NCBI GenBank assembly: GCA_018993155.1
Contig: JAGKSX010000074.1
Location: 1-55,636 of the forward strand
Length of the DNA stretch: 55,636 nt
Origin: Hydrogenophaga sp.
GTDB taxonomy: Bacteria > Pseudomonadota > Gammaproteobacteria > Burkholderiales > Burkholderiaceae_C
Direction: 5' to 3'
Part shown: positions 3,930 to 21,390 of the stretch, piece after piece
Layout: each line of letters opens with the position of its first letter
Position numbering within the stretch: position 1 is the first letter of the stretch
The notes under the pieces: model-generated
Seen by the model: the letters and a program-made list of their open reading frames with translations, nothing else
What the model was told of the DNA's origin: nothing
Database searches by the model: none
Program-made: the position numbers and the translations under genes

Positions 3930-4173
3930 ACCGTCGTACAACCAAAGTACGATCGGAAGTGGCATTCCGAGGGTTGACTCCAGTGAGGGGCTGCCGCGTT
4001 CGCGCCGTGGCTTCTCGCTTGTCCGTACCCCCGTTTTATGGTGGCCCGGACGGGGAGCCGGAAGGCTCGCCGAAGTTGGAATCAACCCCGGCATGCCACA
4101 CCCGTTCGGGCCACCGCCACCCTTACCCAGGGTGGTGGCTGGTTGGCTTTTACACACCAAGGAAAGCGCTCAC
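3930..4173 (+). promoter_or_regulatory. candidate structured 5' leader RNA of the NYN gene
   Basis: This gene-free leader folds into a compact design by eye. A hairpin near 3931-3955 has arms CGTAC/GTACG. Arms 4041-4054 and 4101-4114 pair over 14 positions with one G-U. They enclose a 5-bp hairpin with a GGAA loop (4055-4068) and a second hairpin (4069-4092; GCCG, GTTG, loop GAAT, CAAC, CGGC). The result is a three-way junction. A further 10-bp hairpin spans 4114-4138, followed by a weak T-rich stretch and the ribosome site AAGGAAAG at about 4159. A CCCCCG stretch near 4028-4033 could compete for the junction stem. The nested symmetry suggests a cis-regulatory RNA, but I recognise no known class. 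Confidence 0.5.
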
Positions 4174-4751: not shown

Positions 4752-4827
<76 letters not shown>

Positions 4828-10652: not shown

Positions 10653-10738
10653 CCAGGGACGCCGAGGGTCCGGCTCTGCCGGCCCCAGGTGTCGCCCCCC
10701 TTTCAAGGGGGAGGCGCCGAAGGCGACGCAGGGGGTCA
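10653..10738 (-). repeat. GC-rich intergenic repeat, copy 1
   Basis: Read on the minus strand, this element of about 86 bases begins with the TGA stop codon of the phoX gene. It then runs through a C-run, a GCGTCGCC-TTCGGCG hairpin, a CCCCCTT-GAAAGGGGG hairpin and a GGCCGGC-AGAGCCGG hairpin to end in CCCTGG. It is clearly related in order and sequence to copies at 29141 and 35566. It fills almost the whole gap between the converging uvrD and phoX genes. Confidence 0.75.
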
Positions 10739-12886
10739 GCTCCCAATGACCCCGCCATCGTTCTTCGTGATCACGATGGTAGCGGAGCGCGGGCGCTTGC
10801 CCGCGCCGTAGCCCGCGCTCGACGGCCACTGGCTCTCGTACTTCGTGGGGTCGTTCACGTCGGCCATCCTGGTGTTTTCGCCCGCGTGCTGGATGTTCAC
10901 GAAGATTGCGCGGCCATCGGGCGTTTCGGTGATGCCGGTGATTTCCGCGCCCTTGGGGCCGACCAGGAAGCGCTTGAGCGTGGCCGGGGTCTGTGCCTTG
11001 CCCACGTGCGTGGTCACTTGGCGGTCGCCATGGCTCAGGGTCTTGCGCGCGCCGTCGCCGCGCTGGCCGGGCAGGGCGGCCAGCAGCATGCAGTTGGTCT
11101 TGTCGGTGTAGGCACCGTCGTCGGTCTGGATCCAGCACACGCCCGTGGCCTTGCTGAACACCAGGCCGTCAGGCGAAGAGAGGTCGTTCTCGTCGCTCAG
11201 GTTGGAGAGGTTGATGCTCGACTTGTCGGCATCCGCTTCGGCCGCGAAGAGGTAAATGTCCCACTGGAAGGCCGTGTCCGCCGGGGCCTTCTCGGCCAGG
11301 CGCACGATGTGGCCGTTCACGTTGCCCTTCTGTTCCTTGCCGGCCTTGAGGTCGGTGTAGGCGCGCGGGTTCGCGGCGTCGGTGGTGGCTGGCGTGCGGT
11401 TGCTGTTGTTGGTGAGGGTGATGTAGACCTCGCCGTTCTTCGGGTTCACGCCAGCCCACTCGGGGCGGTCCATCTTGGTCGCGCCCACGGCGTCGGCCGC
11501 GAGGCGGGTGAAGACGGCCACGTCGGCCTCGTTCTTGAACTCGAAGTAGGAGCTGCCGGCGATCACCGGGTTGTCCATCGAGAGTTCCAGCCATTCGCCG
11601 CTGCCGTCGTCCTTGAAGCGCGCGACGAAGAGCGTGCCCTTGTCGAGGTACTTGTCGCCGGCGGCCAGGCGGTTGGCGGGCTGGGCATCGGCCGGGTCCC
11701 AACGGGCGGCCGAGACGAATTTGTAGATGTACTCGCCGCGCGAGTCGTCGCCCATGTAGGCCACCACCGGCTGGCCGGCGCTCACGCGCGCGAAGGTCGC
11801 GTTCTCGTGGCCCAGGCGGCCCAGCGCGGTGCGCTTGCGCAGCACGCTGGCCGGGTTGTAGGGGTCGAGTTCGACGATGTAGCCGAAGGTGTTCATCTCG
11901 TTGCGGAAGTCGTCCTTCGCGCTGGCGCCCACGGCGCCGTTGTTCCAGCGCGTGTAGGTGTCGCTGGCGCCGCCGCTCTCCCAGCCGTGGCGGCTGGCCG
12001 CGCCGGCCTTGCGGCCGTAGCGGTTGAGGGCCTGGACCTGCTTGTCCTTCTTGCGCGCGTCGTCGTCCCTGGCGTCGCGGAAGAAGTAGCCGAACCAGTT
12101 CTCCTCGCCCGAGATGTAGGTGCCCCAGGGCGTGCGGCCGGTGCCGCAGTTGTTGAGCGTGCCGCGCGCCTGCGTGCCGTCGGTGCTGAAGCGCGTCACC
12201 AGGTGTTCGCTGCCGCGCGCCGGGCCGTGGATGGCCACGGGCGTCATGGTGGTCACGCGGCGGTTGAACGCCGAAGCCTGTTTCGTGGCCCAGGCCTTGC
12301 CGTCGGTCTGCACCTCGACCACGGACAGGCCGTGGATCATGAGTTCCTTGTCGATCTCCGCCGCCGGACGGGGCAGGGTGGACGTGCCGCCGTTGGCGTG
12401 GATGAAGAAGGAGCTGAGCTTCTCGTCGGTGGTGGCTTCGTGGTTCATGGCCAGCAGGCCGCGCGAGGCGAAGCTGTTCGAAGGCTGGCCGTTCGCGTCC
12501 AGGCCGAACCACTCGATGCCGTCGTGGTGGTCGCCGGCGCGCTGGCCGAAGTCGGTGTCGGTGCCGTCGTTCCTGAAAGCCGGCGTGGCGGCGGTGAGCG
12601 GGTCGCCCAGCGCGTAGATCACGCGCGCGGTGTAGCCCGGGGGCACCGTCACCTGGTCGGCCATGGTCTTGGCCACGGGCGTGAAGCCCAGGGTGTTCAT
12701 CGGCGAGGCGGGGCCCGTGGTGGCGCAGCCGCTCAGGGCCGCCGCGCCGCCCAGGGCGGTGGCGCCGGCCGTGCCCACGCCGCCGCGCAGCAGGCTGCGG
12801 CGGCTCAGGCGGGCTTGCAGCACGCTGTCGAAAGCGGGGTTGCTGCTGGTGTTGGAGTCTTCGTCGTTGAAGTGAGCGTGGGGCAT
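10736..12886 (-). CDS. phoX: PhoX-family alkaline phosphatase, Tat-exported
   Basis: A 716-residue member of the PhoX (DUF839) phosphatases, calcium/iron enzymes that release phosphate from organic esters outside the cytoplasm. The twin-arginine signal SRRSLLR lies at residues 28-34, followed by a hydrophobic stretch and a lipobox LSGC with Cys54, so it may be a Tat-exported lipoprotein. The family hallmark NNCGTGRTPWGTY is present, as are DRPEWAGVNP and SSPDGLVFSKATG. The ATG at 12886 has AAGG eight bases upstream. A PHO-box-like repeat lies 48 bases before the start. A paralogue occurs at 19144; this copy has SGEEN where the other has ACEEN. Confidence 0.88.
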   Translation of the reverse strand: MPHAHFNDEDSNTSSNPAFDSVLQARLSRRSLLRGGVGTAGATALGGAAALSGCATTGPASPMNTLGFTPVAKTMADQVTVPPGYTARVIYALGDPLTAATPAFRNDGTDTDFGQRAGDHHDGIEWFGLDANGQPSNSFASRGLLAMNHEATTDEKLSSFFIHANGGTSTLPRPAAEIDKELMIHGLSVVEVQTDGKAWATKQASAFNRRVTTMTPVAIHGPARGSEHLVTRFSTDGTQARGTLNNCGTGRTPWGTYISGEENWFGYFFRDARDDDARKKDKQVQALNRYGRKAGAASRHGWESGGASDTYTRWNNGAVGASAKDDFRNEMNTFGYIVELDPYNPASVLRKRTALGRLGHENATFARVSAGQPVVAYMGDDSRGEYIYKFVSAARWDPADAQPANRLAAGDKYLDKGTLFVARFKDDGSGEWLELSMDNPVIAGSSYFEFKNEADVAVFTRLAADAVGATKMDRPEWAGVNPKNGEVYITLTNNSNRTPATTDAANPRAYTDLKAGKEQKGNVNGHIVRLAEKAPADTAFQWDIYLFAAEADADKSSINLSNLSDENDLSSPDGLVFSKATGVCWIQTDDGAYTDKTNCMLLAALPGQRGDGARKTLSHGDRQVTTHVGKAQTPATLKRFLVGPKGAEITGITETPDGRAIFVNIQHAGENTRMADVNDPTKYESQWPSSAGYGAGKRPRSATIVITKNDGGVIGS

Positions 12887-12934
12887 GGCAATGACCTTGG
12901 GTGAGTGAATCACCGCGGATCATGTGCAGTCAAT

Positions 12935-12952
12935 GTGAAAACCTGGTGACAG
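12935..12952 (-). promoter_or_regulatory. PHO-box-like direct repeat before phoX
   Basis: On the minus strand the site reads CTGTCAC-CAGG-TTTTCAC, two 7-base units 11 bases apart, the spacing of the PhoB box (consensus CTGTCAT, four bases, CTGTCAT). A -10-like CATGAT begins about 10 bases downstream, as expected for a PhoB-dependent promoter. Almost the same sequence recurs at 17724-17741. Confidence 0.6.
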
Positions 12953-13133
12953 CTTGAACGGGTTTCCGTGTCATGGCGGGCGAACGCGTCACCCGACCTG
13001 GGTACGCCGCCATGCGGGTCCTCGATCGCATGCATGCCTGGCGCGCTGGAAGTGACGTGGGCGTCGCCGCGGACGGGGCTCCGAGTTCTCAGCGCGCGCT
13101 GCGATGTCCCTGCCTTGGAAAGCCGGAAGCGTA

Positions 13134-13859
13134 TCAGTGGTTGTGTAGGCTGGCCCGCAGCAACTCCACAGCGTGGCTGTGCAGCTGGCACACACGCGAC
13201 TCGCTCAGGCCGAACTGGCCGCCGATCTCCCGGAACGTCATGTCGCCGCTGCAGTGCAGGACGATCACCTCTCGCTCGCGTGAAGGCAGTGCCCGAATCG
13301 CGTCGGCCAGGGCATTTTGTCGCCGCCCCGCCTCCAGCAGCGACAGAGGGTCTGCATGCCAGTCGCCGAGTGACGGGCCGCTGGCCTCCGAGCCTTCGCG
13401 ATCGTCGTCCTCGTCGGCACTGAGGAGGTCCATGTCGTCCAGCTGCACCAGTTGTGCGCGGTACACCTTGCCCATCCGGTGTTGCACATCTGCAAGCGGC
13501 ATGCCCAGTTCGGCGGCCAGTTCGGTGTCGGTCGGGCGGCGACACAGCCGGTTCTGCAGGCGCTGCACAGCCAGCTCGATCTCGCGCCCGCTCTTGCGGT
13601 GTTGGCGCGGAACCCAGTCGAGTTCGCGCAACTCGTCGATCATCGCGCCGCGAATCCTGAACTTCGCAAAATGCTCCAGTTCACCTTCGCCCGGCTCGCA
13701 GCGCGAAATGGCGTCGCTCAGACCGATCATGCCGACCTGGATCAAGTCGTCGACGTCGACCGAGGCGGGAAGCCGGGACACCATGTGGTAGGCCATGCGC
13801 GTGACCATGGGCTGGTGCTGGCGGAGTTGTTCGTTGTGACCTGCGTTGAAGGCGTGCAT
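13134..13859 (-). CDS. fliA: FliA-type sigma factor (sigma-28 family), orphan
   Basis: A 241-residue alternative sigma factor with regions 2 (VDDLIQVGMIGLSDAIS, FAKFRIRGAMIDELRELDWVPR), 3 and 4 (LPSREREVIVLHCSGDMTFREIGGQFGLSESRVCQLH). The RGAMIDELR-DWVPR stretch and the length place it with FliA, which in other bacteria reads flagellin and chemotaxis promoters. No flagellar gene is present within 13 kb to the left or 40 kb to the right. An acidic insert (DEDDDREGSEAS) sits between regions 3 and 4. The ATG at 13859 gives the normal N-terminus; GTG/ATG starts further upstream are possible. It reads toward phoX, but 250 bases with an own PHO-type site separate them. Confidence 0.82.
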   Translation of the reverse strand: MHAFNAGHNEQLRQHQPMVTRMAYHMVSRLPASVDVDDLIQVGMIGLSDAISRCEPGEGELEHFAKFRIRGAMIDELRELDWVPRQHRKSGREIELAVQRLQNRLCRRPTDTELAAELGMPLADVQHRMGKVYRAQLVQLDDMDLLSADEDDDREGSEASGPSLGDWHADPLSLLEAGRRQNALADAIRALPSREREVIVLHCSGDMTFREIGGQFGLSESRVCQLHSHAVELLRASLHNH

Positions 13860-14090
13860 GGATGGGATCTCTGGTGGGGCGAGCACCGGAAAATGTCGAC
13901 CCGTGCCCTGGGTTGAAATTTAGGGTACCGTCGCAGGGGTGTCTGTGAGGAGTTCTCGACGCGGTGTGCAAGAAAAGGCGCTTTTTTTCAGGTGGGATCT
14001 GCCCATTCGTGTCCGGAGTGAACCCGGGCGGGCGCTGGCCACCGTGGTCGGGGTGCCGGACACCTGTCCCTCCCCTGGAAACCTGAAGCC
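13860..14090. other. gap between sigma factor and arsC-like gene
   Basis: A divergent gap of about 230 bases with no coding sequence. It contains a short AAAAGGCGCTTTT hairpin followed by T at about 13974-13990, and otherwise nothing I can name. Promoters for both flanking genes should lie here. Confidence 0.4.
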
Positions 14091-14450
14091 ATGAGCACCA
14101 TCACCGTCTACCACAACCCTTCCTGCGGCACCTCGCGCAACGTGCTGGCCTTGATCCGCGAACGCGGCGAAGAGCCGCAGGTCATCGAGTACCTCAAGAC
14201 CCCGCCCAGCCGCGAAACCCTGAAGCAGCTTGCGGCGGCCACGGGCGGTTCGGTGCGCACCATCGTGCGCAGCAAGGCTGCGCCCTATGAAGAGCTTGGC
14301 CTGGCCGATCCGAAGTGGAGCGACGAGCAACTGCTCGACTTCATGGAGCAGCACCCCATCCTGCTGAACCGGCCGATCGTGGTCACGCCGCTGGGCACGC
14401 GGGTGTGCCGCCCGGCCGAGACCGTGCTGGAGATCCTGCCGCCGGCCTGA
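14091..14450 (+). CDS. arsC: ArsC-family arsenate reductase (glutaredoxin type)
   Basis: A 119-residue thioredoxin-fold protein. The N-terminal motif NPSCGTSRN carries the active-site cysteine, and LNRPIVVTPLGTRVCRP is the conserved C-terminal ArsC block. ArsC reduces arsenate to arsenite with glutathione and glutaredoxin. No arsenite exporter or ArsR regulator is nearby, so this may be a general stress or housekeeping copy. In this phosphate-linked block it would be useful because arsenate enters through phosphate transporters; that link is inference. The gene ends at the base before the convergent decarboxylase gene ends. Confidence 0.87.
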   Translation: MSTITVYHNPSCGTSRNVLALIRERGEEPQVIEYLKTPPSRETLKQLAAATGGSVRTIVRSKAAPYEELGLADPKWSDEQLLDFMEQHPILLNRPIVVTPLGTRVCRPAETVLEILPPA

Positions 14451-15347
14451 TCAGCCCGCAGCCGCCACGCGCCGCAGCAGGGCTTCGCCCATGCGGATGC
14501 GGTGGCCCGTCTCCACGCCCTCGCACAGGGCGAAGCCCGCTGGCGTGAACACCAGGATGGTCGAACCGTGTTCGAACCAGCCCATCTCCTCGCCCTTGTC
14601 GTAACGCGCGTCGCAGGGCAGCTCGTGCGGCCCCCGGTATTGCGCGTTGAGCGCCACGTCCACCGCGCGCAGCCGCATGCTGGCCACCAGGATGGCGGCC
14701 ACCGGCACCAGCAGCAGCGGCGTGCCGTCGGCCAGGCGCGCGTGCAGTGCGGCGCGCTCGTTGCTGCAGAACAGCCGCTCGATGCGCTGGAGCGCGATCG
14801 GGTTCACGTTCCAGGTGTCGCCGCTATGGTAGGTCACGTGCTCCAGCGCCAGCGCGGCCGGGGCGTGGAAGCGGTGGTACATGCTGGAGGTCAGGCGCAG
14901 CGTCACGTAGCTGCCGCCGCGCAGGGTGTCCACCATCGCCCGCGCGCGAAGGTCTTGTCCGAGCAGGTCGGTGAGCGGGTACGGGAAGCCCTTGGCCTGG
15001 AACACCTGGGCGCCCGGGTCGTCGCCGATGCGCCCGCAGGCGCCGACGATGGCGTCGCAGGGGCTGGCCAGCACCTCGGGGCGCGGGTCGATCGGCCGCA
15101 GGCCGGGCTTGAGTTCGCGCACGAAGCAGTCGTGCAGGCTGTCGAAAGTGGTCTTCTTCGCCTCGCTCAGGTCGATGTCCGTGAACGTGCGCCACACGGC
15201 CATGGAGGCCGCGCGCACCCAGGGATGGCGGATGCGGCTGAACCAGCCCATGAAGCGCGTGAGCGCCGCGCGCGGCACGCGGTTGGTGAGCAGGAAGTTG
15301 ATGTCTTCGTTGAGCGCGAGGCGCTGCAGCTGTCTTGAAAGATTCAT
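14451..15347 (-). CDS. psd: phosphatidylserine decarboxylase
   Basis: A 298-residue pyruvoyl-dependent decarboxylase that turns phosphatidylserine into phosphatidylethanolamine at the inner membrane. The self-cleavage motif HGST-ILVF places the pyruvoyl-forming serine at about residue 262. SPCDAIVGACGRI, YHRFHAP and the HDCFVRELKPGLRPID segment agree with the large bacterial Psd family; length is close to the E. coli enzyme (322). The ATG at 15347 starts the conserved region; an ATG at 15380 is an alternative. It is divergent from a class III aminotransferase gene with 61 bases between, suggesting joint regulation. No phosphatidylserine synthase is in the window, so another serine- or amino-acid-headed substrate cannot be excluded. 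Confidence 0.88.
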   Translation of the reverse strand: MNLSRQLQRLALNEDINFLLTNRVPRAALTRFMGWFSRIRHPWVRAASMAVWRTFTDIDLSEAKKTTFDSLHDCFVRELKPGLRPIDPRPEVLASPCDAIVGACGRIGDDPGAQVFQAKGFPYPLTDLLGQDLRARAMVDTLRGGSYVTLRLTSSMYHRFHAPAALALEHVTYHSGDTWNVNPIALQRIERLFCSNERAALHARLADGTPLLLVPVAAILVASMRLRAVDVALNAQYRGPHELPCDARYDKGEEMGWFEHGSTILVFTPAGFALCEGVETGHRIRMGEALLRRVAAAG

Positions 15348-15408
15348 ACGTGCGTCATGTGGTCGACCTACAAACGACACACATCAACCGCCCTGGAGCG
15401 CTTGCCGC

Positions 15409-17055
15409 ATGTCCTACCTTCCTTACGCCTTGCCCTTGGGTTCGCTGGTGCTGGCTTTGCCGTACCTGCGGCAGCGCCTGCAGCTTTCGCGGGCCAAACA
15501 CCGCTCGCTGGCCGGCCATTCGCGCATGGCCAAACGCCTGGCGACCTGGTTGCCCGGCTACGCCTACGACGAGGCGCGTTTCTTCGATTGCGACGGCGCG
15601 CCGGGCGACATCGCGAAGCTGCGCCGCGCCTCGTTCGACACGCTCGCCACCGGCTTCGCCCAGCGCTATGAAAAGAGCCTGGCGCTGAGCGCCGAAGCGC
15701 GCGAAGGCCTGGCCGACCTGCAGTTCACCGGCAGCTACCGCGTGCCGTTCCAGTTCAGCCCCCTCGTGCGCGAGCGGCTCAAGGTGGGCGCCTTCGTGCA
15801 GTCCGCCGAGGGCAGCCACGTGACCGACCTGGACGGCAACCGCTTCATCGACCTCACGGGCTCCTACGGCGTGAATGTGTTCGGTGTGGACTTCTACAAG
15901 GCCTGCATGGCCGAGGGTGCGCGCATCGGCGAGTCGCTGGGCCCGGTGCTGGGGGCCTACCACCCTTGTGTGGCGGACAACATCGCGCGCCTGAAGGCGA
16001 TCTCGGGCCAGGACCAGGTGTCGTTCCACATGTCCGGCACCGAGGCGGTGATGCAGGCCGTGCGGCTGGCCCGGTACCACACGCGGCGCAAGCACCTGGT
16101 GCGCTTCTGCGGCGCGTACCACGGCTGGTGGGAGGACGTGCAGCCCGGCCCCGGCAACCCGATGCCCCCGCGCGAGACCTACACCCTGAAGGACCTGGAC
16201 GAGAAAAGCCTGCACGTGCTGCGCACGCGGCGCGACATCGCCTGCGTGCTGGTCAACCCGCTGCAGGCCCTGCACCCGAACCGCAACGCACCCGGCGACT
16301 CCACCCTGGTGGACGGCAGCCGCTGCGCGGGCTACGACCGCGTGGCCTACACCGCTTGGCTGAAACAATTGCGCGAGGTCTGCACCGAGCGGGGCATCGT
16401 GCTGATCTTCGACGAGGTGTTCCTTGGTTTTCGCCTCGCGCCCGGTGGCGCGCAGGAATACTTCGGTGTGCGCGCCGACCTCGTCACCTATGGCAAGACG
16501 TTGGCCGGCGGCTACCCCGTGGGCGTGGTCTGCGGCCGGGCCGATCTGATGCAGCGCTTCCGGCCCGAGCGCCCGGCCGATGTGTGCTTCGCGCGCGGCA
16601 CCTTCAACGCGCACCCCTACGTGATGGGCGGCATGAACGCCTTCCTGCGCCGGCTGCAGACGCCGGAGATTCAGGCCTTGTACGAGGACCAGGACACGAA
16701 GTGGGATGCGCGCGCGAAGCGCTTCAACGACACCATGGCCGCCGAGGGTTTCCCGGTGCGCGCGGCGAACCTGCAGAGCATCTGGACGCTCACCTACACC
16801 GAGCCCGGTCGTTACCACTGGATGCTCCAGCACTTCCTGCGCTGGCATGGGCTGGCCTTGAGCTGGGTGGGCACGGGGCGGCTGATCTTCGGTTTGAACC
16901 TGCACGACGGCGACTTCGAGGAGGTGCTGCGGCGCTTCGTGGCCGCCGCGCGGGACATGCAGACCCAGGGTTGGTGGTGGCGCGCGCCGGAACTGACGCA
17001 CAAGGCGATCCGGCGCCAGGTGCTGCGCGAGATGTGGCAGCACCTGGGGCGCTGA
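15409..17055 (+). CDS. class III PLP-dependent aminotransferase (GSAM-like)
   Basis: A 548-residue fold-type I PLP enzyme related to glutamate-1-semialdehyde aminomutase and other class III aminotransferases. The PLP lysine is K363 in TYGKTLAGGYPVG, with the preceding IFDEVFLGFR supplying the ring-binding aspartate. SGTEAVMQAVRLAR and GAYHGWW are further family signatures. It is about 100 residues longer than a typical GSAM: the N-terminus begins with a hydrophobic stretch (LPLGSLVLALPYL) and a basic segment that could attach it to the membrane. The ATG at 15409 has GGAG ten bases upstream. It is divergent from psd and next to lipid-type genes, so an amine-bearing lipid substrate is plausible but unproven. 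Confidence 0.83.
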   Translation: MSYLPYALPLGSLVLALPYLRQRLQLSRAKHRSLAGHSRMAKRLATWLPGYAYDEARFFDCDGAPGDIAKLRRASFDTLATGFAQRYEKSLALSAEAREGLADLQFTGSYRVPFQFSPLVRERLKVGAFVQSAEGSHVTDLDGNRFIDLTGSYGVNVFGVDFYKACMAEGARIGESLGPVLGAYHPCVADNIARLKAISGQDQVSFHMSGTEAVMQAVRLARYHTRRKHLVRFCGAYHGWWEDVQPGPGNPMPPRETYTLKDLDEKSLHVLRTRRDIACVLVNPLQALHPNRNAPGDSTLVDGSRCAGYDRVAYTAWLKQLREVCTERGIVLIFDEVFLGFRLAPGGAQEYFGVRADLVTYGKTLAGGYPVGVVCGRADLMQRFRPERPADVCFARGTFNAHPYVMGGMNAFLRRLQTPEIQALYEDQDTKWDARAKRFNDTMAAEGFPVRAANLQSIWTLTYTEPGRYHWMLQHFLRWHGLALSWVGTGRLIFGLNLHDGDFEEVLRRFVAAARDMQTQGWWWRAPELTHKAIRRQVLREMWQHLGR

Positions 17056-17059
17056 AGCT

Positions 17060-17665
17060 TCAGCTGCGCTGGGCGATGCCGGGATCGATCAGCTGGCCGC
17101 GCATCAGGTACAGCGGAGCCTTGTGGTACAGCTTGATGTCGTGGAACGGGTCGGTCAGGATCTTGGTCATCCAGACCAGACCGGTCTTCACGTCGGCGAT
17201 GAAGAACAGGTGCACGGTGCGGAACAGCAGGCCGCCCACGCCGAGCGCCAGCCACAGCGTGCCGACCTGGCGGATGAACGAGGTCCAGTCCGTGTGAGGC
17301 TCGAACAGGCCGAACACGCCGGGCTCGGCCCACACCAGCAGCGGTGTGCCGGCCCACAGGGCCATCAGCACCACCTTGCGGCGCAGGTTGTAGCCGACCT
17401 TGATCTCTTCCTTGTGTTCGTGCGTGGCCTGGTTCACGTGGTCGTAGCCCTTGGGCTCGAAGAAGAAGTGGCCGGCCTGGCGCGTGGTCATGGACACCAG
17501 CCAGGCGATCAGCGCCGACAGCACGGGATCGGTCCACAGCAGCGCATAGGCCACCACGAAGCTCATGGCGCTGATGAAGTGCAGCGTCTGGTTGATGCGG
17601 CTGTGGTGGTAGTAGCGGTGGTCGTCCCAGCGCTGGACTTCAAGGGTCTTGAAAAAATCGTTCAC
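17060..17665 (-). CDS. Mpo1-like (DUF962-type) membrane protein
   Basis: A 201-residue membrane protein with about four hydrophobic segments. The N-terminal YYHHSRINQTLHFIS and the internal RQAGHFFFEP resemble the HxxxxNxxxH and QxxGHxxFE motifs of the Mpo1/DUF962 family. Yeast Mpo1 is an iron-dependent dioxygenase that shortens 2-hydroxy fatty acids. The middle motif here continues EPKGYD instead of the usual E-K-x-P-A type, so assignment is moderate. The GTG start at 17665 has GGAG six bases upstream. The gene ends five bases from the convergent aminotransferase gene and has PHO-box-like repeats upstream, shared with the divergent glycosyltransferase. Confidence 0.55.
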   Translation of the reverse strand: MNDFFKTLEVQRWDDHRYYHHSRINQTLHFISAMSFVVAYALLWTDPVLSALIAWLVSMTTRQAGHFFFEPKGYDHVNQATHEHKEEIKVGYNLRRKVVLMALWAGTPLLVWAEPGVFGLFEPHTDWTSFIRQVGTLWLALGVGGLLFRTVHLFFIADVKTGLVWMTKILTDPFHDIKLYHKAPLYLMRGQLIDPGIAQRS

Positions 17666-17691
17666 GGTGGCTCCAGAGGGTTGCTAGGGTG

Positions 17692-17766
17692 GCGTCAAGC
17701 GCCTGTCATGTTGGTTCGCGCGTGTGAAAACCCGGTGACAGCCGCGCGCTGTCATCAGACTGTTGC
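17692..17766. promoter_or_regulatory. cluster of three PHO-box-like repeats
   Basis: In the 123-base divergent gap three 18-base sites have 7-4-7 architecture. Plus strand 17692-17709 reads GCGTCAA-GCGC-CTGTCAT. Minus strand 17724-17741 reads CTGTCAC-CGGG-TTTTCAC. Plus strand 17749-17766 reads CTGTCAT-CAGA-CTGTTGC. The minus-strand site points to the Mpo1-like gene and differs at one of 18 positions from the site before phoX. The last plus-strand site lies only 22 bases from the glycosyltransferase start, so the first may be the working one for that gene. Confidence 0.6.
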
Positions 17767-17788
17767 AATGCCCCGGGAAGATGGCCGC

Positions 17789-19027
17789 ATGACCGAAGTG
17801 CACTCAGATCAGATCCTGGTGGAGGAATACCCGGCCGGCAGCCCTTCGATGCGCCTGTCGGTGGTGACCGAGACCTGGCCACCCGAGATCAACGGGGTGT
17901 CGCTCACGCTCTCGAAGCTGGTGCAGGGCCTGTGCGCGCGCAACCACCAGGTGCAGCTGATCCGGCCGCGCCAGACGCGTGCGGACGAGGCGCTGCGGCA
18001 CAGCGGGTTCGAGGAGGTGCTGATGCGCGGCATGCCGATCCCGCGCTACCCCGAGCTCAAGCTCGGCCTGCCGGGCAAGCGCGCGCTGATCCAGGCCTGG
18101 ACGCTCAAGCGGCCCGACCTGGTGCACATCGCCACCGAAGGGCCGCTGGGCTGGTCGGCGCTGCAGGCCGCGCGCCGCCTGCGCCTGCCGGTCACGTCCG
18201 ACTTCCGCACCAACTTCCATGCCTACAGCCAGCACTACGGCGTGGGCTGGCTGCGCAAGCCCATCGTGGCCTACCTGCGCAAGTTCCACAACCTCACGCG
18301 GCTCACCATGGTGCCCACCCAGGCGCTGCGCGCCGAACTCATGGCGGGCGGCTTCAACCACGTGCAGGTGGTCGCGCGCGGCGTGGACACGCAGCTGTTC
18401 CGGCCCGACCGCCGCAGCGAGGCGCTGCGCGCGCAATGGGGCGCCACGGCCAACAGCCTGGTGCTGCTGGTCGTGGGGCGCCTGGCCGCCGAGAAGAACC
18501 TGGACATGGTGCTGCGCGCCTTCGGGGCCATGCAGGTGGCCCATCCCGATGTGAAGCTGGTCTTCGTGGGCGATGGGCCTCTGCGCGAGAGCCTGCGCCA
18601 GCGCTGTGCGCAGGCGGTGTTCGCGGGCATGCGGCGGCACGAGGAGCTGGCCACGTACTACGCCTCGGCCGATCTCTTCCTGTTCCCCAGTGTCACCGAG
18701 ACCTTCGGCAACGTGACCATCGAGGCCCTGGCCAGCGGGCTGCCCGTGCTGGCCTTCGACACCGCGGCCGCGGCCGACTGGGTGCGGCACGAGGCCAACG
18801 GCTGGCTGGTGCCGCTGGGCGACGACGAGGCCTACCCGGCCCTGGCCGCCGGCCTGGCGCGCGAGCCCGCGCGCCTGGCGCAGGCCAGCGCGCTTGCCTG
18901 CGCCCAGGTGGCGCAGCTCGACTGGCAGCAGATCGCGCTGCAGGTGGAGGCGCTGTTCCTGCAGACGCTGGGCACGCCGGCGAGCCCGGTGGTCGCCGCG
19001 CGCGGCCGCACCTTGCCCGCCGTGTGA
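17789..19027 (+). CDS. glycosyltransferase family 1 (glycolipid type)
   Basis: A 412-residue GT-B glycosyltransferase. The N-terminal MRLSVVTETWPPEINGVS is the acceptor-side start typical of GT4 enzymes related to SqdX and alpha-mannosyl or glucosyl diacylglycerol synthases. The donor site shows VVGRLAAEKNLD and the E-x7-E motif ETFGNVTIE, followed by ALASGLPVLAFD. The ATG at 17789 has GGAAG about 9 bases upstream; an in-frame ATG at 17768 lacks a ribosome site. PHO-like repeats lie upstream, and the phoX paralogue follows 116 bases downstream. Under phosphate limitation many bacteria replace phospholipids with glycolipids made by enzymes of this type; this role is inferred. Confidence 0.82.
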   Translation: MTEVHSDQILVEEYPAGSPSMRLSVVTETWPPEINGVSLTLSKLVQGLCARNHQVQLIRPRQTRADEALRHSGFEEVLMRGMPIPRYPELKLGLPGKRALIQAWTLKRPDLVHIATEGPLGWSALQAARRLRLPVTSDFRTNFHAYSQHYGVGWLRKPIVAYLRKFHNLTRLTMVPTQALRAELMAGGFNHVQVVARGVDTQLFRPDRRSEALRAQWGATANSLVLLVVGRLAAEKNLDMVLRAFGAMQVAHPDVKLVFVGDGPLRESLRQRCAQAVFAGMRRHEELATYYASADLFLFPSVTETFGNVTIEALASGLPVLAFDTAAAADWVRHEANGWLVPLGDDEAYPALAAGLAREPARLAQASALACAQVAQLDWQQIALQVEALFLQTLGTPASPVVAARGRTLPAV

Positions 19028-19094
19028 AGGTTTGATGACAACGCGTTTGCCGAAGTGCGTTGCTCGGTCATTGCGACAGTCACGGAAGGGTCAT
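19024..19094. promoter_or_regulatory. two PHO-box-like repeats before second phoX
   Basis: A minus-strand site at 19024-19041 reads TTGTCAT-CAAA-CCTTCAC and overlaps the glycosyltransferase stop codon. A plus-strand site at 19077-19094 reads CAGTCAC-GGAA-GGGTCAT and is in the right orientation and distance (49 bases) for the phoX start at 19144. Both keep the 11-base repeat of the PhoB box with several mismatches. Confidence 0.5.
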
Positions 19095-19143
19095 GTGGGA
19101 CGCCCACACTGCGGATGCATTTTTTTGTAACCCCGGAGCGACC

Positions 19144-21390
19144 ATGTCCCACCACGATCCCGAAGAAAACCTCAATCACTCCCCGAACGAACACTTCCAG
19201 CAGGTGCTGGAACGCGCCACGCTGTCCCGCCGCAACCTGATCCGGGGTGGCGTGGGCCTGGCCGCCGTCTCGTCCATTCCCTTCCTGGCCGCTTGTGGTG
19301 GCGGCAGCGATGCGCCCGCTCCGGCCCCCGCACCCGCTCCTGCCCCGGGCCTGGGCTTCACGGCCATCGACAAGAGCCTGCTCGACGACGTGATCCTGCC
19401 CGCCGGCTACACCTACAAGGTGGTGCACGCCACCGGTGACCGCCTGGTCTCCAGCATCCCGGCCTACAGCAACCTCGGTACCGAGGCGGACGAATGGACC
19501 ATGCGCGTGGGCGACCACCACGACGGCATGGACCTTTTCTACGTCAACGGCAGCGGCAGCTACTCGGCCACGGAGACCACGCGCGCGCTGCTCGTGATGA
19601 ACCACGAGAGCTCGGCCGACGCGCACTTCTTCCACCCCAACGGCCAGACCTCCGGCGGTGTGTCGGGCAAGAAGTTCAGCCAGTTCGACAGCTGGGACCT
19701 GGGCGTGCGGCCCGAGCTGGAAGTGCTCAAGGAAATCAACCACCACGGCGTGTCGGTGGTGGAAGTGGGCAAGAACGGCGCCGGCCAGTGGGAGTACAAG
19801 CTGGACTCGCTCTACAACCGCCGCGTCACCGGCCAGTCGCTGATGCGCATCGACGGCCCGGCCGCGCACCTGGCGGCCATCAAGAGCTTCATGGTGACGG
19901 CCTACGACACCACCGGCGCCACCTCGCGCGGCACGCTGAACAACTGCGGCCACGGCAAGACGCCCTGGGGCACCTACCTGGCCTGCGAAGAAAACTGGGC
20001 CGCGTACTTCTTCATGCCCGGCGGTTCGGTGGACGTGGATGCCAAGACCAAGGCCTCGCGCCAGCGTTATGGCGTGATGCGAGCGCCCAATGCCGGCGCC
20101 ACTGCCGGCTCGCAAGGCTGGTCCAACACCGCCACGGCCGCCACCGACAACCGCTTTGGCCGCTGGGACGTGTCGGCACCCGGCGCCACCGCCGCGCAGG
20201 ACTTCCGCAACGAGCCCAACACCTTCGGCTACATCGTCGAGATCGACCCCCTGACCAGCGGCACGCCCGCCAAGCGCGTGGCCCTGGGCCGCTTCGCGCA
20301 CGAGGCCGCGGTCTGCGGCATTCCGGTGGTTGGCCAGCCGCTGGCCTTCTACATGGGCTGCGATTCGCGCAACGAGTACATCTACAAGTTCGTCTCCGCC
20401 GCCGTGTGGCGCGCCTCCGACGTGGGCGGCGGCCTGGCCGCCGGTGACCGCTACCTCAACGAAGGCAAGCTGTACGTCGCGAAGTTCAACGACAACGGCA
20501 GCGGCGAGTGGATCGAACTCAACATCGCCAACCCGCTGATCAGCGGCTACGCCACCTACGTCTTCGCCAACCAGGCCGATGTGCTGATCAACGCGCGCCA
20601 CGCCGCCGACGCCGTCGGCGCCACCAAGATGGACCGCCCGGAGTGGGGCGCGGTGAACCCGGCCAATGGCGAGATCTACTTCACCATGACCAACAGCAAC
20701 GCGGCCAGCCGCCCGGTGACCGGCACCAACGGCGCCAACCCGCGTTCGTACGCCGACAACGACGGCCGCGCGCAGACCGGCAACCCCAACGGCCACATCG
20801 TGCGCTTCAAGGAAACCGCCGGCGCGTCCTCGGCCACCGCCTTCAAGTGGGACATCTTCCTGTTCGGCGCGGAGGCCGATGCGGGCGCGAACATCAACCT
20901 CTCGGGCCTGACCGCGAAGAACGACTTCTCATCGCCCGACGGCCTGTGGTTCAGCAAGGCCACCGGCATCTGCTGGATCCAGACCGACGACGGCGCCTAC
21001 ACCGACCAGAGCAACTGCATGCTGCTGGCCGCGATTCCGGGTGCGGTGGGCGATGGCGGTGCGATCACGGTGAACAACAGCCTGGGCGGTGTCAACGGCA
21101 CGCAGAACACCTTCATCGGTGCCGCGCTGGGTGAGGCCAAGCTGCGCCGCTTCATGGTCTCGCCCAAGGGCGCCGAAGTCACGGGCATCACCGAATCGGC
21201 CGATGGCCGCGCGATCTTCGTGAACATCCAGCACCCGGGCGAGAACACGCCCGCGCTGGGCGCCGGTCCGTTCGCCTTCCAGAGCCAGTGGCCGGGCAAC
21301 TCGCCCAGCGCGCCTTACGGCCCGCTGGGCCGCCCGCGTTCGGCCACCATCGTCATCACCCGCACCGACGGCGGCGTGATCGGCCAGTGA
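19144..21390 (+). CDS. phoX: second PhoX-family phosphatase, Tat-exported
   Basis: A 748-residue paralogue of the phosphatase at 10736. The signal SRRNLIR at residues 28-34, a hydrophobic core and LAAC (Cys51) suggest Tat export and lipid attachment. A short Pro-Ala repeat spacer (residues 57-68) follows. The hallmark NNCGHGKTPWGTY is followed by ACEENW; DRPEWGAVNP and SSPDGLWFSKATG match the paralogue. The ATG at 19144 has GGAG six bases upstream. PHO-like repeats precede it, and a strong terminator follows. Two copies facing each other across eight kilobases suggest different substrates or phosphate thresholds. Confidence 0.88.
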   Translation: MSHHDPEENLNHSPNEHFQQVLERATLSRRNLIRGGVGLAAVSSIPFLAACGGGSDAPAPAPAPAPAPGLGFTAIDKSLLDDVILPAGYTYKVVHATGDRLVSSIPAYSNLGTEADEWTMRVGDHHDGMDLFYVNGSGSYSATETTRALLVMNHESSADAHFFHPNGQTSGGVSGKKFSQFDSWDLGVRPELEVLKEINHHGVSVVEVGKNGAGQWEYKLDSLYNRRVTGQSLMRIDGPAAHLAAIKSFMVTAYDTTGATSRGTLNNCGHGKTPWGTYLACEENWAAYFFMPGGSVDVDAKTKASRQRYGVMRAPNAGATAGSQGWSNTATAATDNRFGRWDVSAPGATAAQDFRNEPNTFGYIVEIDPLTSGTPAKRVALGRFAHEAAVCGIPVVGQPLAFYMGCDSRNEYIYKFVSAAVWRASDVGGGLAAGDRYLNEGKLYVAKFNDNGSGEWIELNIANPLISGYATYVFANQADVLINARHAADAVGATKMDRPEWGAVNPANGEIYFTMTNSNAASRPVTGTNGANPRSYADNDGRAQTGNPNGHIVRFKETAGASSATAFKWDIFLFGAEADAGANINLSGLTAKNDFSSPDGLWFSKATGICWIQTDDGAYTDQSNCMLLAAIPGAVGDGGAITVNNSLGGVNGTQNTFIGAALGEAKLRRFMVSPKGAEVTGITESADGRAIFVNIQHPGENTPALGAGPFAFQSQWPGNSPSAPYGPLGRPRSATIVITRTDGGVIGQ

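Follow-up and report, generated by a model that had tools for sequence, protein, structure and literature searches.

What joins the genes that lie between two PhoX phosphatase genes at positions 10736-21390 of a Hydrogenophaga sp. contig, and which of them form a unit? The window hereafter is the whole stretch of DNA that we analysed, 55,636 nucleotides (contig C149; the draft genome comprises 4.9 Mb). The original prediction, made from this sequence, regarded the 10.7-kb block between and including the phosphatases as one regulon that gathers phosphate and remodels lipids. We found that the conserved unit is a smaller set of four genes, which encode a second phosphatidylserine decarboxylase (psd2), a class III aminotransferase dependent on pyridoxal phosphate (PLP; the gene and its product are called AT below), an Mpo1-like membrane protein (mpo1) and a GT4 glycosyltransferase (GT). 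Judging from sequence comparisons, this module is probably used, once phosphate is exhausted, to synthesise or alter a membrane lipid. Genes were identified by family profile scans, some of them run on longer open frames, and start positions are those that we chose. The core genes and the two sites between mpo1 and GT that resemble PHO boxes are:

14451-15347, minus strand: psd2, second phosphatidylserine decarboxylase (TIGR00163 146.8 bits, cutoff 111.75)
15409-17055, plus strand: AT, class III PLP aminotransferase with a hydrophobic N-terminus (PF00202 111.5 bits, cutoff 30.5)
17060-17665, minus strand: mpo1, Mpo1-like membrane protein (PF06127 23.4 bits, cutoff 24)
17724-17741, minus strand: PHO-box-like site CTGTCACCGGGTTTTCAC, ~59 nt upstream of mpo1, score 12
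17749-17766, plus strand: PHO-box-like site CTGTCATCAGACTGTTGC, upstream of GT, score 12
17789-19027, plus strand: GT, GT4 glycosyltransferase (105 bits); translation may in fact begin at the in-frame ATG at 17849

In a protein search of genome contigs, the closest relatives of AT are those of a metagenome-assembled genome of Comamonadaceae (93%) and of Hydrogenophaga. The search gave 398 relatives, the best 80 of which were used as a set of loci; counts in this set concern genes within the fetched stretches, many of which end at contig ends. We found psd2 in 80/80 loci, AT in 80/80, mpo1 in 77/80 and GT in 74/80, all four together in 74/80, and wherever they are present their order and strands are those of the window (AT and mpo1 are 3.3-4.4 kb apart in L049, L063, L069 and L070). 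PhoX is encoded in 23/80 loci, 16 of these 23 being labelled Hydrogenophaga, arsC in 3/80, and the sigma factor in 0/80 of the fetched stretches. Since all four genes are kept in 74 loci, while PhoX, arsC and the sigma factor were found in 23 or fewer, the conserved unit is psd2-AT-mpo1-GT. PhoX is mostly a Hydrogenophaga addition, and the neighbourhoods of the relatives rule out ArsC and the sigma factor as members of the module. The gene order of the core thus extends beyond this strain, so that the original prediction is not refuted on this count; the idea that the whole block is one unit is not supported.

Other genes recur in the vicinity. A polyphosphate kinase 2 gene (cluster 12, of which one member was annotated, 365 bits) occurs in 11/80 loci (e.g., L046:8133-9038) and lies directly beside psd2 in 7 of them, several labelled Limnohabitans. 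By clustering, UDP-glucose dehydrogenase genes are repeatedly near GT, in 20 loci (e.g., L033:14973-16421), as are MFS transporter genes, in 32 (e.g., L033:13697-15127; one member of each was annotated), a pattern that would suit a supply of UDP-glucuronate for a glucuronosyl lipid.

What chemistry do the core proteins suggest? PSD2 belongs to the phosphatidylserine decarboxylase family, with a profile score over the cutoff, matches to solved structures of these enzymes (6l06, 7cnw) and, invariant in 30 homologues, both the self-processing motif (H260 G261 S262 T263) and the two active-site histidines of YHRFHAP. Unlike the usual psd, it is a second copy and, with some exceptions, lies beside AT in the majority of genomes that carry AT; the genome holds another psd on contig C77 (32% identity with psd2) and thus has a source of phosphatidylethanolamine (PE) besides psd2. 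The best match of AT among solved structures is the aminotransferase domain of mycosubtilin synthase (235 bits), which is held to aminate a keto-acyl chain, followed by glutamate-1-semialdehyde aminomutase (GSAM, 159 bits). AT shares with both the class III family and the residues K363 and D335, invariant in 49 homologues, which we take from knowledge of the family to be the PLP lysine and aspartate. It differs from them in standing alone, in its hydrophobic N-terminus and ~100 extra residues, and in its neighbourhood of lipid genes. The Mpo1-like protein has H16, H20, H29, H66, D14, D15 and E70 invariant in 44 homologues, and the four histidines, which may correspond to the iron ligands of yeast Mpo1, are kept even in the fusion partners described below, at 27-29% identity. 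It belongs at the margin to the Pfam family of yeast Mpo1, with which it may have the invariant histidines in common, and differs from the yeast protein in scoring under the cutoff, in its length (201 residues against a profile of 95 positions) and in its fusion, within one genus, to an aminotransferase. Its predicted fold is a good model (pLDDT 89.7), for which a fold search gave no PDB match at E 0.001 or better. In the part of PMC9624242 on which we draw, yeast Mpo1 is described as an Fe(II)-dependent dioxygenase that carries out the alpha-oxidation of a 2-hydroxy fatty acid.

This chemistry, together with the lead of the mycosubtilin synthase domain over the best GSAM (235 vs 159 bits), would suit a pathway acting on acyl chains instead of head groups, in which AT aminates a keto-acyl chain and the Mpo1-like protein acts on a 2-hydroxy fatty acid. 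However, the partners of these two proteins here and in other lineages (PSD2, a PmtA-like methyltransferase, GT and BtaA) act on head groups, and no acyl carrier protein or acyl ligase is among the eight annotated neighbour clusters (one member each), a point qualified by an acyl carrier protein gene ~11 kb from AT on a Sphingomonas plasmid. We consider this pathway quite improbable.

How far does the core extend beyond the nearest relatives? Counting as AT-positive the genomes with an AT match at E 1e-60 or better, we found AT in 11/369 genomes drawn from the class and in 25/398 drawn from the phylum, two of which are shared, leaving 34 distinct genomes. We examined the neighbourhoods of 30 further AT loci from these draws, and 25 of them have psd2, AT and mpo1 within the stretch, in varying gene orders. 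Elsewhere, the sole psd of the genome is 31% identical to psd2 (L099), psd2 is present in the genome but outside the stretch (L100 and L102, 57% and 53% identical), or the genome holds only a psd that is 33% (L103) or 32% (L104) identical to psd2. In the last two loci, which belong to one genus, AT and the Mpo1-like protein are encoded in a single open frame (742 residues in L103, 738 in L104), next to genes for BtaA (PF11899, 346 and 369 bits), an S-adenosylmethionine (SAM) methyltransferase and a PlcP-like phosphoesterase of the calcineurin type; in L104, one of the two loci, a PhoA-type alkaline phosphatase (PF00245) is also near. This fusion suggests that oxidation and transamination take place on one substrate or in one place. 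In L126, L132, L133 and L083, a methyltransferase gene adjoins mpo1, and its closest family is the phospholipid N-methyltransferase PmtA, at 130-153 bits, below the cutoff of 390; by Pfam, a methyltransferase gene also adjoins mpo1 in L128. The company of PSD2 and PmtA-like proteins suggests an amino head group. A PhoX-like gene lies within the module in L098. Two genomes of different families encode luciferase-like flavin monooxygenases near the module (L103:4976-5920 and L132:5073-7064).

One of these loci (L083) is on a plasmid of Sphingomonas parapaucimobilis (NZ_CP155753) typed as non-mobilizable, where the module reads psd2-AT-mpo1-pmtA and genes for serine palmitoyltransferase, an acyl carrier protein, a desaturase and lptFG lie within ~12 kb. 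The distance of ~10 kb from serine palmitoyltransferase, the acyl carrier protein and lptFG might place the module in sphingolipid metabolism. In the genome of the window, however, no serine palmitoyltransferase reaches the cutoff (best match 211.8 bits, cutoff 500), which rules out the link there, and we regard a role in sphingolipid metabolism as extremely improbable.

In seven loci (L101, L135, L136, L138, L139, L140 and L141), the GT4 protein is fused to an N-terminal domain of 450 residues, for example:

L101, 9844-12552: GT4 fusion with an N-terminal PHP-type phosphoesterase-like domain

HCHD, TNHNN, PHP and GG.DDH are invariant in the seven sequences of this domain, which we tentatively read as being of the PHP type. 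Its top Foldseek matches are the PHP-type enzymes 7ug9 (E 7.8e-5) and 3e0f (3.9e-4), obtained with a weak model (pLDDT 57); searches by Pfam and by PDB sequence gave no PHP match.

Is the module linked to the breakdown of phospholipids? Using the phosphoesterase of L103 as the query, we found PlcP in 149/398 genomes of the phylum draw. Among AT-positive genomes, it is present in 18/25 of the phylum draw (absent from G717, G378, G450, G476, G480, G535 and G574) and in 7/9 of the further ones of the class draw (absent from G045 and G186). The PHP-type domain, sought in all 34 genomes, is found in 9/9 of those that lack PlcP and in 0/25 of those that have it (Fisher p 2e-8, relatedness ignored). 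The fusion with GT4 was seen in 7 of these 9 genomes; the domain of G186 is divided between two contigs, and that of G480 reaches a contig end. The nine genomes span four genera, and in a tree of 47 AT proteins eight of the nine form one supported clade, so the exchange of PlcP for the PHP-type domain may have been a single evolutionary event. Because this clade mixes the families f47 and f140, of the class of the window, with f207, which is outside it, the tree also suggests that the module moved between classes. The plcP gene itself is within the fetched stretch in 14/110 loci (8/80 and 6/30). In the genome of the window, it is at C34:31382-32110, directly followed by a GT4 gene and ~6 kb before pstS; the product of this GT4 gene is 38% identical over 307 residues to that of the window, whose gene is not adjacent to plcP. 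BtaA (PF11899) is present in 29/398 genomes of the phylum draw, and we found no btaA match in the genome of the window.

Is the core under phosphate control? The block reads phoX1(-), sigma factor(-), arsC(+), psd2(-), AT(+), mpo1-like(-), GT4(+), phoX2(+), and the family scans agree with the gene identities first proposed, the two PhoX genes bracketing the rest. The features that flank or interrupt the core are:

10736-12886, minus strand: phoX1, alkaline phosphatase PhoX (PF05787, 413 bits); flanking addition
12935-12952, minus strand: PHO-box-like site CTGTCACCAGGTTTTCAC, ~49 nt upstream of phoX1, score 12/14
13134-13856, minus strand: sigma-70 family factor (Sigma70 r2, r3 and r4 profiles); bystander
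14091-14450, plus strand: arsC, glutaredoxin-type arsenate reductase (TIGR00014 137 bits, cutoff 106); bystander
19066-19094, plus strand: three PHO-box-like half sites with 11-bp spacing, ~50 nt upstream of phoX2, best pair 11/14
19144-21390, plus strand: phoX2, alkaline phosphatase PhoX (PF05787, 404 bits); flanking addition

As the PHO-box consensus we took CTGTCA(T/C)-N4-CTGTCA(T/C), counted matches out of 14 and called a site good at 12 or more. The whole window has exactly three good sites, upstream of phoX1, mpo1 and GT, all scoring 12, against a mean of 1.13 in 60 dinucleotide shuffles; at 11 or more, there are 14 sites against 12.6 expected from the shuffles, a number only mildly above chance. 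With the score of 11 before phoX2, the repeats originally reported before both phoX genes, mpo1 and GT were all recovered. As far as sequence can tell, the real evidence is the placement of the sites in promoters and their footprint in relatives rather than their number. The divergent mpo1-GT gap of relatives has a site of at least 12 in 54/76 loci and of at least 11 in 76/76, with sites of at least 11 on both strands in 64/76; when these gaps are shuffled, 0.46% reach 12 and 5.8% reach 11. Among non-convergent intergenic gaps of the 80-locus set, used as controls, 14/107 have a site of at least 12 and 33/107 one of at least 11, still far below the mpo1-GT figures (Fisher p 6e-16 for the comparison, relatedness ignored and the control gaps being shorter, median 130 vs 191). 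The psd2-AT gaps of relatives reach 12 in 17/97 cases. A scan of promoters in 31 loci gave sites of at least 12 upstream of AT in 8/31, of mpo1 in 6/28 and of GT in 9/24, and genus g362 has near-perfect boxes upstream of AT (CTGTCATGAATCTGTCAG) and of GT (CTGTCATCTCGCTGTCAC). As a positive control, pstS of the same genome carries ATGTCACATGGATGTCAT (score 12). PhoB is encoded on contig C34 (TIGR02154 341 bits, cutoff 296). Besides this full PhoB, a PhoB-like fragment at a contig end (G000:C115:3020-3547, model positions 48-225, 271 bits, under the cutoff of 296) is a second copy or a contaminant.

Could shared ancestry alone explain these neighbours, with psd2 as a spare gene for PE synthesis and phosphate control limited to phoX? 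The 80 loci are indeed related, and the block does contain unrelated genes, namely the sigma factor and arsC. Yet gene orders are rearranged in other lineages, AT and the Mpo1-like protein are fused, the set is spread beyond the class, PHO boxes stand at mpo1-GT, and the presence of PlcP tracks the absence of the PHP-type domain. We disfavour this explanation as very improbable.

We favour, as rather probable, the view that psd2-AT-mpo1-GT serves as a module for remodelling lipids when phosphate is scarce, which would work as follows. At low phosphate, PhoB would bind the boxes and switch on phoX1, phoX2, mpo1 and GT. PhoX would release phosphate from organic compounds, and PlcP, encoded elsewhere beside a GT4 gene near pst, would cut phospholipids to diacylglycerol, which the GT4 protein of the window would glycosylate, unless it uses a derived lipid. 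At the membrane, PSD2 would decarboxylate phosphatidylserine or a similar amino-acid lipid, and AT and the Mpo1-like protein, a presumed iron oxygenase, would act on the lipid head group as a pair for oxidation and transamination. The product would be a nitrogen-bearing lipid, N-methylated in some lineages. Support comes from the gene content, its conservation, the gene fusion, the PHO-box footprints and the linkage with plcP, btaA and phoX, and the whole fits a remodelling additional to the classical PlcP-Agt path. What was first proposed for the locus therefore stands in part: the lipid role of the genes, the conserved order and the link to phosphate starvation (PHO boxes that relatives have before mpo1 and GT, the company of plcP and btaA, PhoX) are supported, and the block as a single unit is not. 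A new aminolipid or glycolipid is possible; a glycolipid-type plcP-GT4 pair is already present at another site in the genome.

More tentatively, and as a possibility to be taken in all its parts jointly, the product may be an undescribed membrane lipid, for which PSD2, the membrane-associated AT and the Mpo1-like oxygenase would build a nitrogen-bearing head group. This head group would be carried on diacylglycerol in a lipid that is possibly free of phosphorus, an aminolipid or a betaine-like one, N-methylated where the PmtA-like gene is present and serving as an alternative or an addition to the BtaAB betaine lipids. Where PlcP is absent, the PHP-phosphoesterase/GT4 fusion would replace PlcP plus Agt.

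The same enzymes might instead serve turnover: PSD2, with PmtA elsewhere, would turn phosphatidylserine into PE or methylated PE, the best PlcP substrates, and AT and the Mpo1-like protein would deaminate and oxidise the amino head group, either released or still bound to the lipid, recovering nitrogen and phosphate. That PSD2 retains the features of a true phosphatidylserine decarboxylase, that other lineages have a PmtA-like partner and that PlcP occurs in all 25 AT-positive genomes without the PHP-type domain would agree with this, and class III PLP enzymes include ethanolamine-phosphate phospho-lyases. However, the best scores of AT are those with GSAM and mycosubtilin-type aminotransferases, in a direct comparison that did not extend to phospho-lyases, and the fact that the module has a GT of its own suggests synthesis. 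Because GT belongs to the core, we prefer synthesis and think turnover unlikely.

Several observations weigh against a phosphate-controlled module for lipid remodelling. Control intergenic gaps (13%) exceed the shuffles in boxes, so the background is higher than the shuffles imply. The psd2-AT gap of the window reaches 9/14 at best, no site of at least 12 was found upstream of psd2 in the 25 loci where its promoter was scanned, and 16 of the 31 scanned loci, including L103 and L104, have none at any module promoter scanned. Because the psd2-AT gap has no good PHO box, the sequence does not support the control of psd2 and AT by a single regulon in this strain; of the one regulon originally envisaged, the boxes at phoX1, mpo1, GT and phoX2 are what holds, and the inclusion of psd2 and AT is unproven here. 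No PHO box precedes the plcP gene of this genome within 250 bases (best score 8). Moreover, 131 of the 149 PlcP-positive genomes of the phylum draw are AT-negative, i.e., the module is dispensable for classical remodelling. A genome-wide co-occurrence of AT and BtaA is rejected, BtaA being present in 0/25 AT-positive genomes of the phylum draw; since the hypergeometric p is 0.14, mutual exclusion cannot be claimed. Finally, genome counts ignore relatedness, and 9 of the 25 AT-positive genomes of the phylum draw are of one genus.

Away from the block, a C4 antisense RNA, which we take to be a phage-type regulator, lies at 4034-4121 on the plus strand of the window (Rfam RF01695, 54.8 bits, cutoff 45), ~630 bases from a tRNA-Ala gene (4752-4827, minus strand), and is possibly the remnant of an integrated element.

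How does the module relate to known systems? With the PlcP-Agt path of Phaeobacter, Pseudomonas aeruginosa, Agrobacterium and Methylosinus it shares GT4, the PHO boxes and PlcP in the genome, sometimes with plcP near, and it differs in adding psd2, the aminotransferase and the Mpo1-like protein. The BtaA-BtaB operon for the betaine lipid diacylglyceryltrimethylhomoserine (DGTS), which comes with plcP, has a parallel in the btaA, methyltransferase and plcP-like genes beside the AT-Mpo1 fusion in two genomes of one genus; the genome of the window and the 25 AT-positive genomes of the phylum draw have no BtaA. The classical PlcP-Agt path is the subject of PMC4796936, PMC9239053 and PMC8528852. 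In the main texts, 'aminotransferase' and 'phosphatidylserine decarboxylase' have 0 mentions in PMC9239053 and PMC8528852, as have 'aminotransferase' and 'phosphatidylserine' in PMC4796936, Mpo1 not being among the terms looked for. We found no description of the psd2-AT-mpo1-GT set in the open-licence literature, judged by titles and the starts of abstracts.

The replacement of phospholipids in phosphate starvation lowers the phosphorus demand of bacteria, and to our knowledge the gene sets that carry it out are few (plcP-agt, btaAB, ols). Here, a widespread set of four genes has PHO boxes, and all the genomes that carry it have PlcP or the putative PHP-GT4 substitute. From the swap between PlcP and the PHP-type domain, a new enzyme that cleaves phospholipids is predicted, and the gene set gives lipidomics exact targets in culturable members of Hydrogenophaga, Limnohabitans and Methyloversatilis. 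According to the part of PMC4796936 on which we draw, the synthesis route of diacylglycerylhydroxymethyltrimethyl-beta-alanine (DGTA) in marine heterotrophic bacteria awaits characterisation. If the module does make an undescribed lipid, as tentatively suggested above, the btaA-plcP-(AT-Mpo1) cluster, seen in one genus, would also be a candidate for a bacterial route to lipids of the DGTA type.

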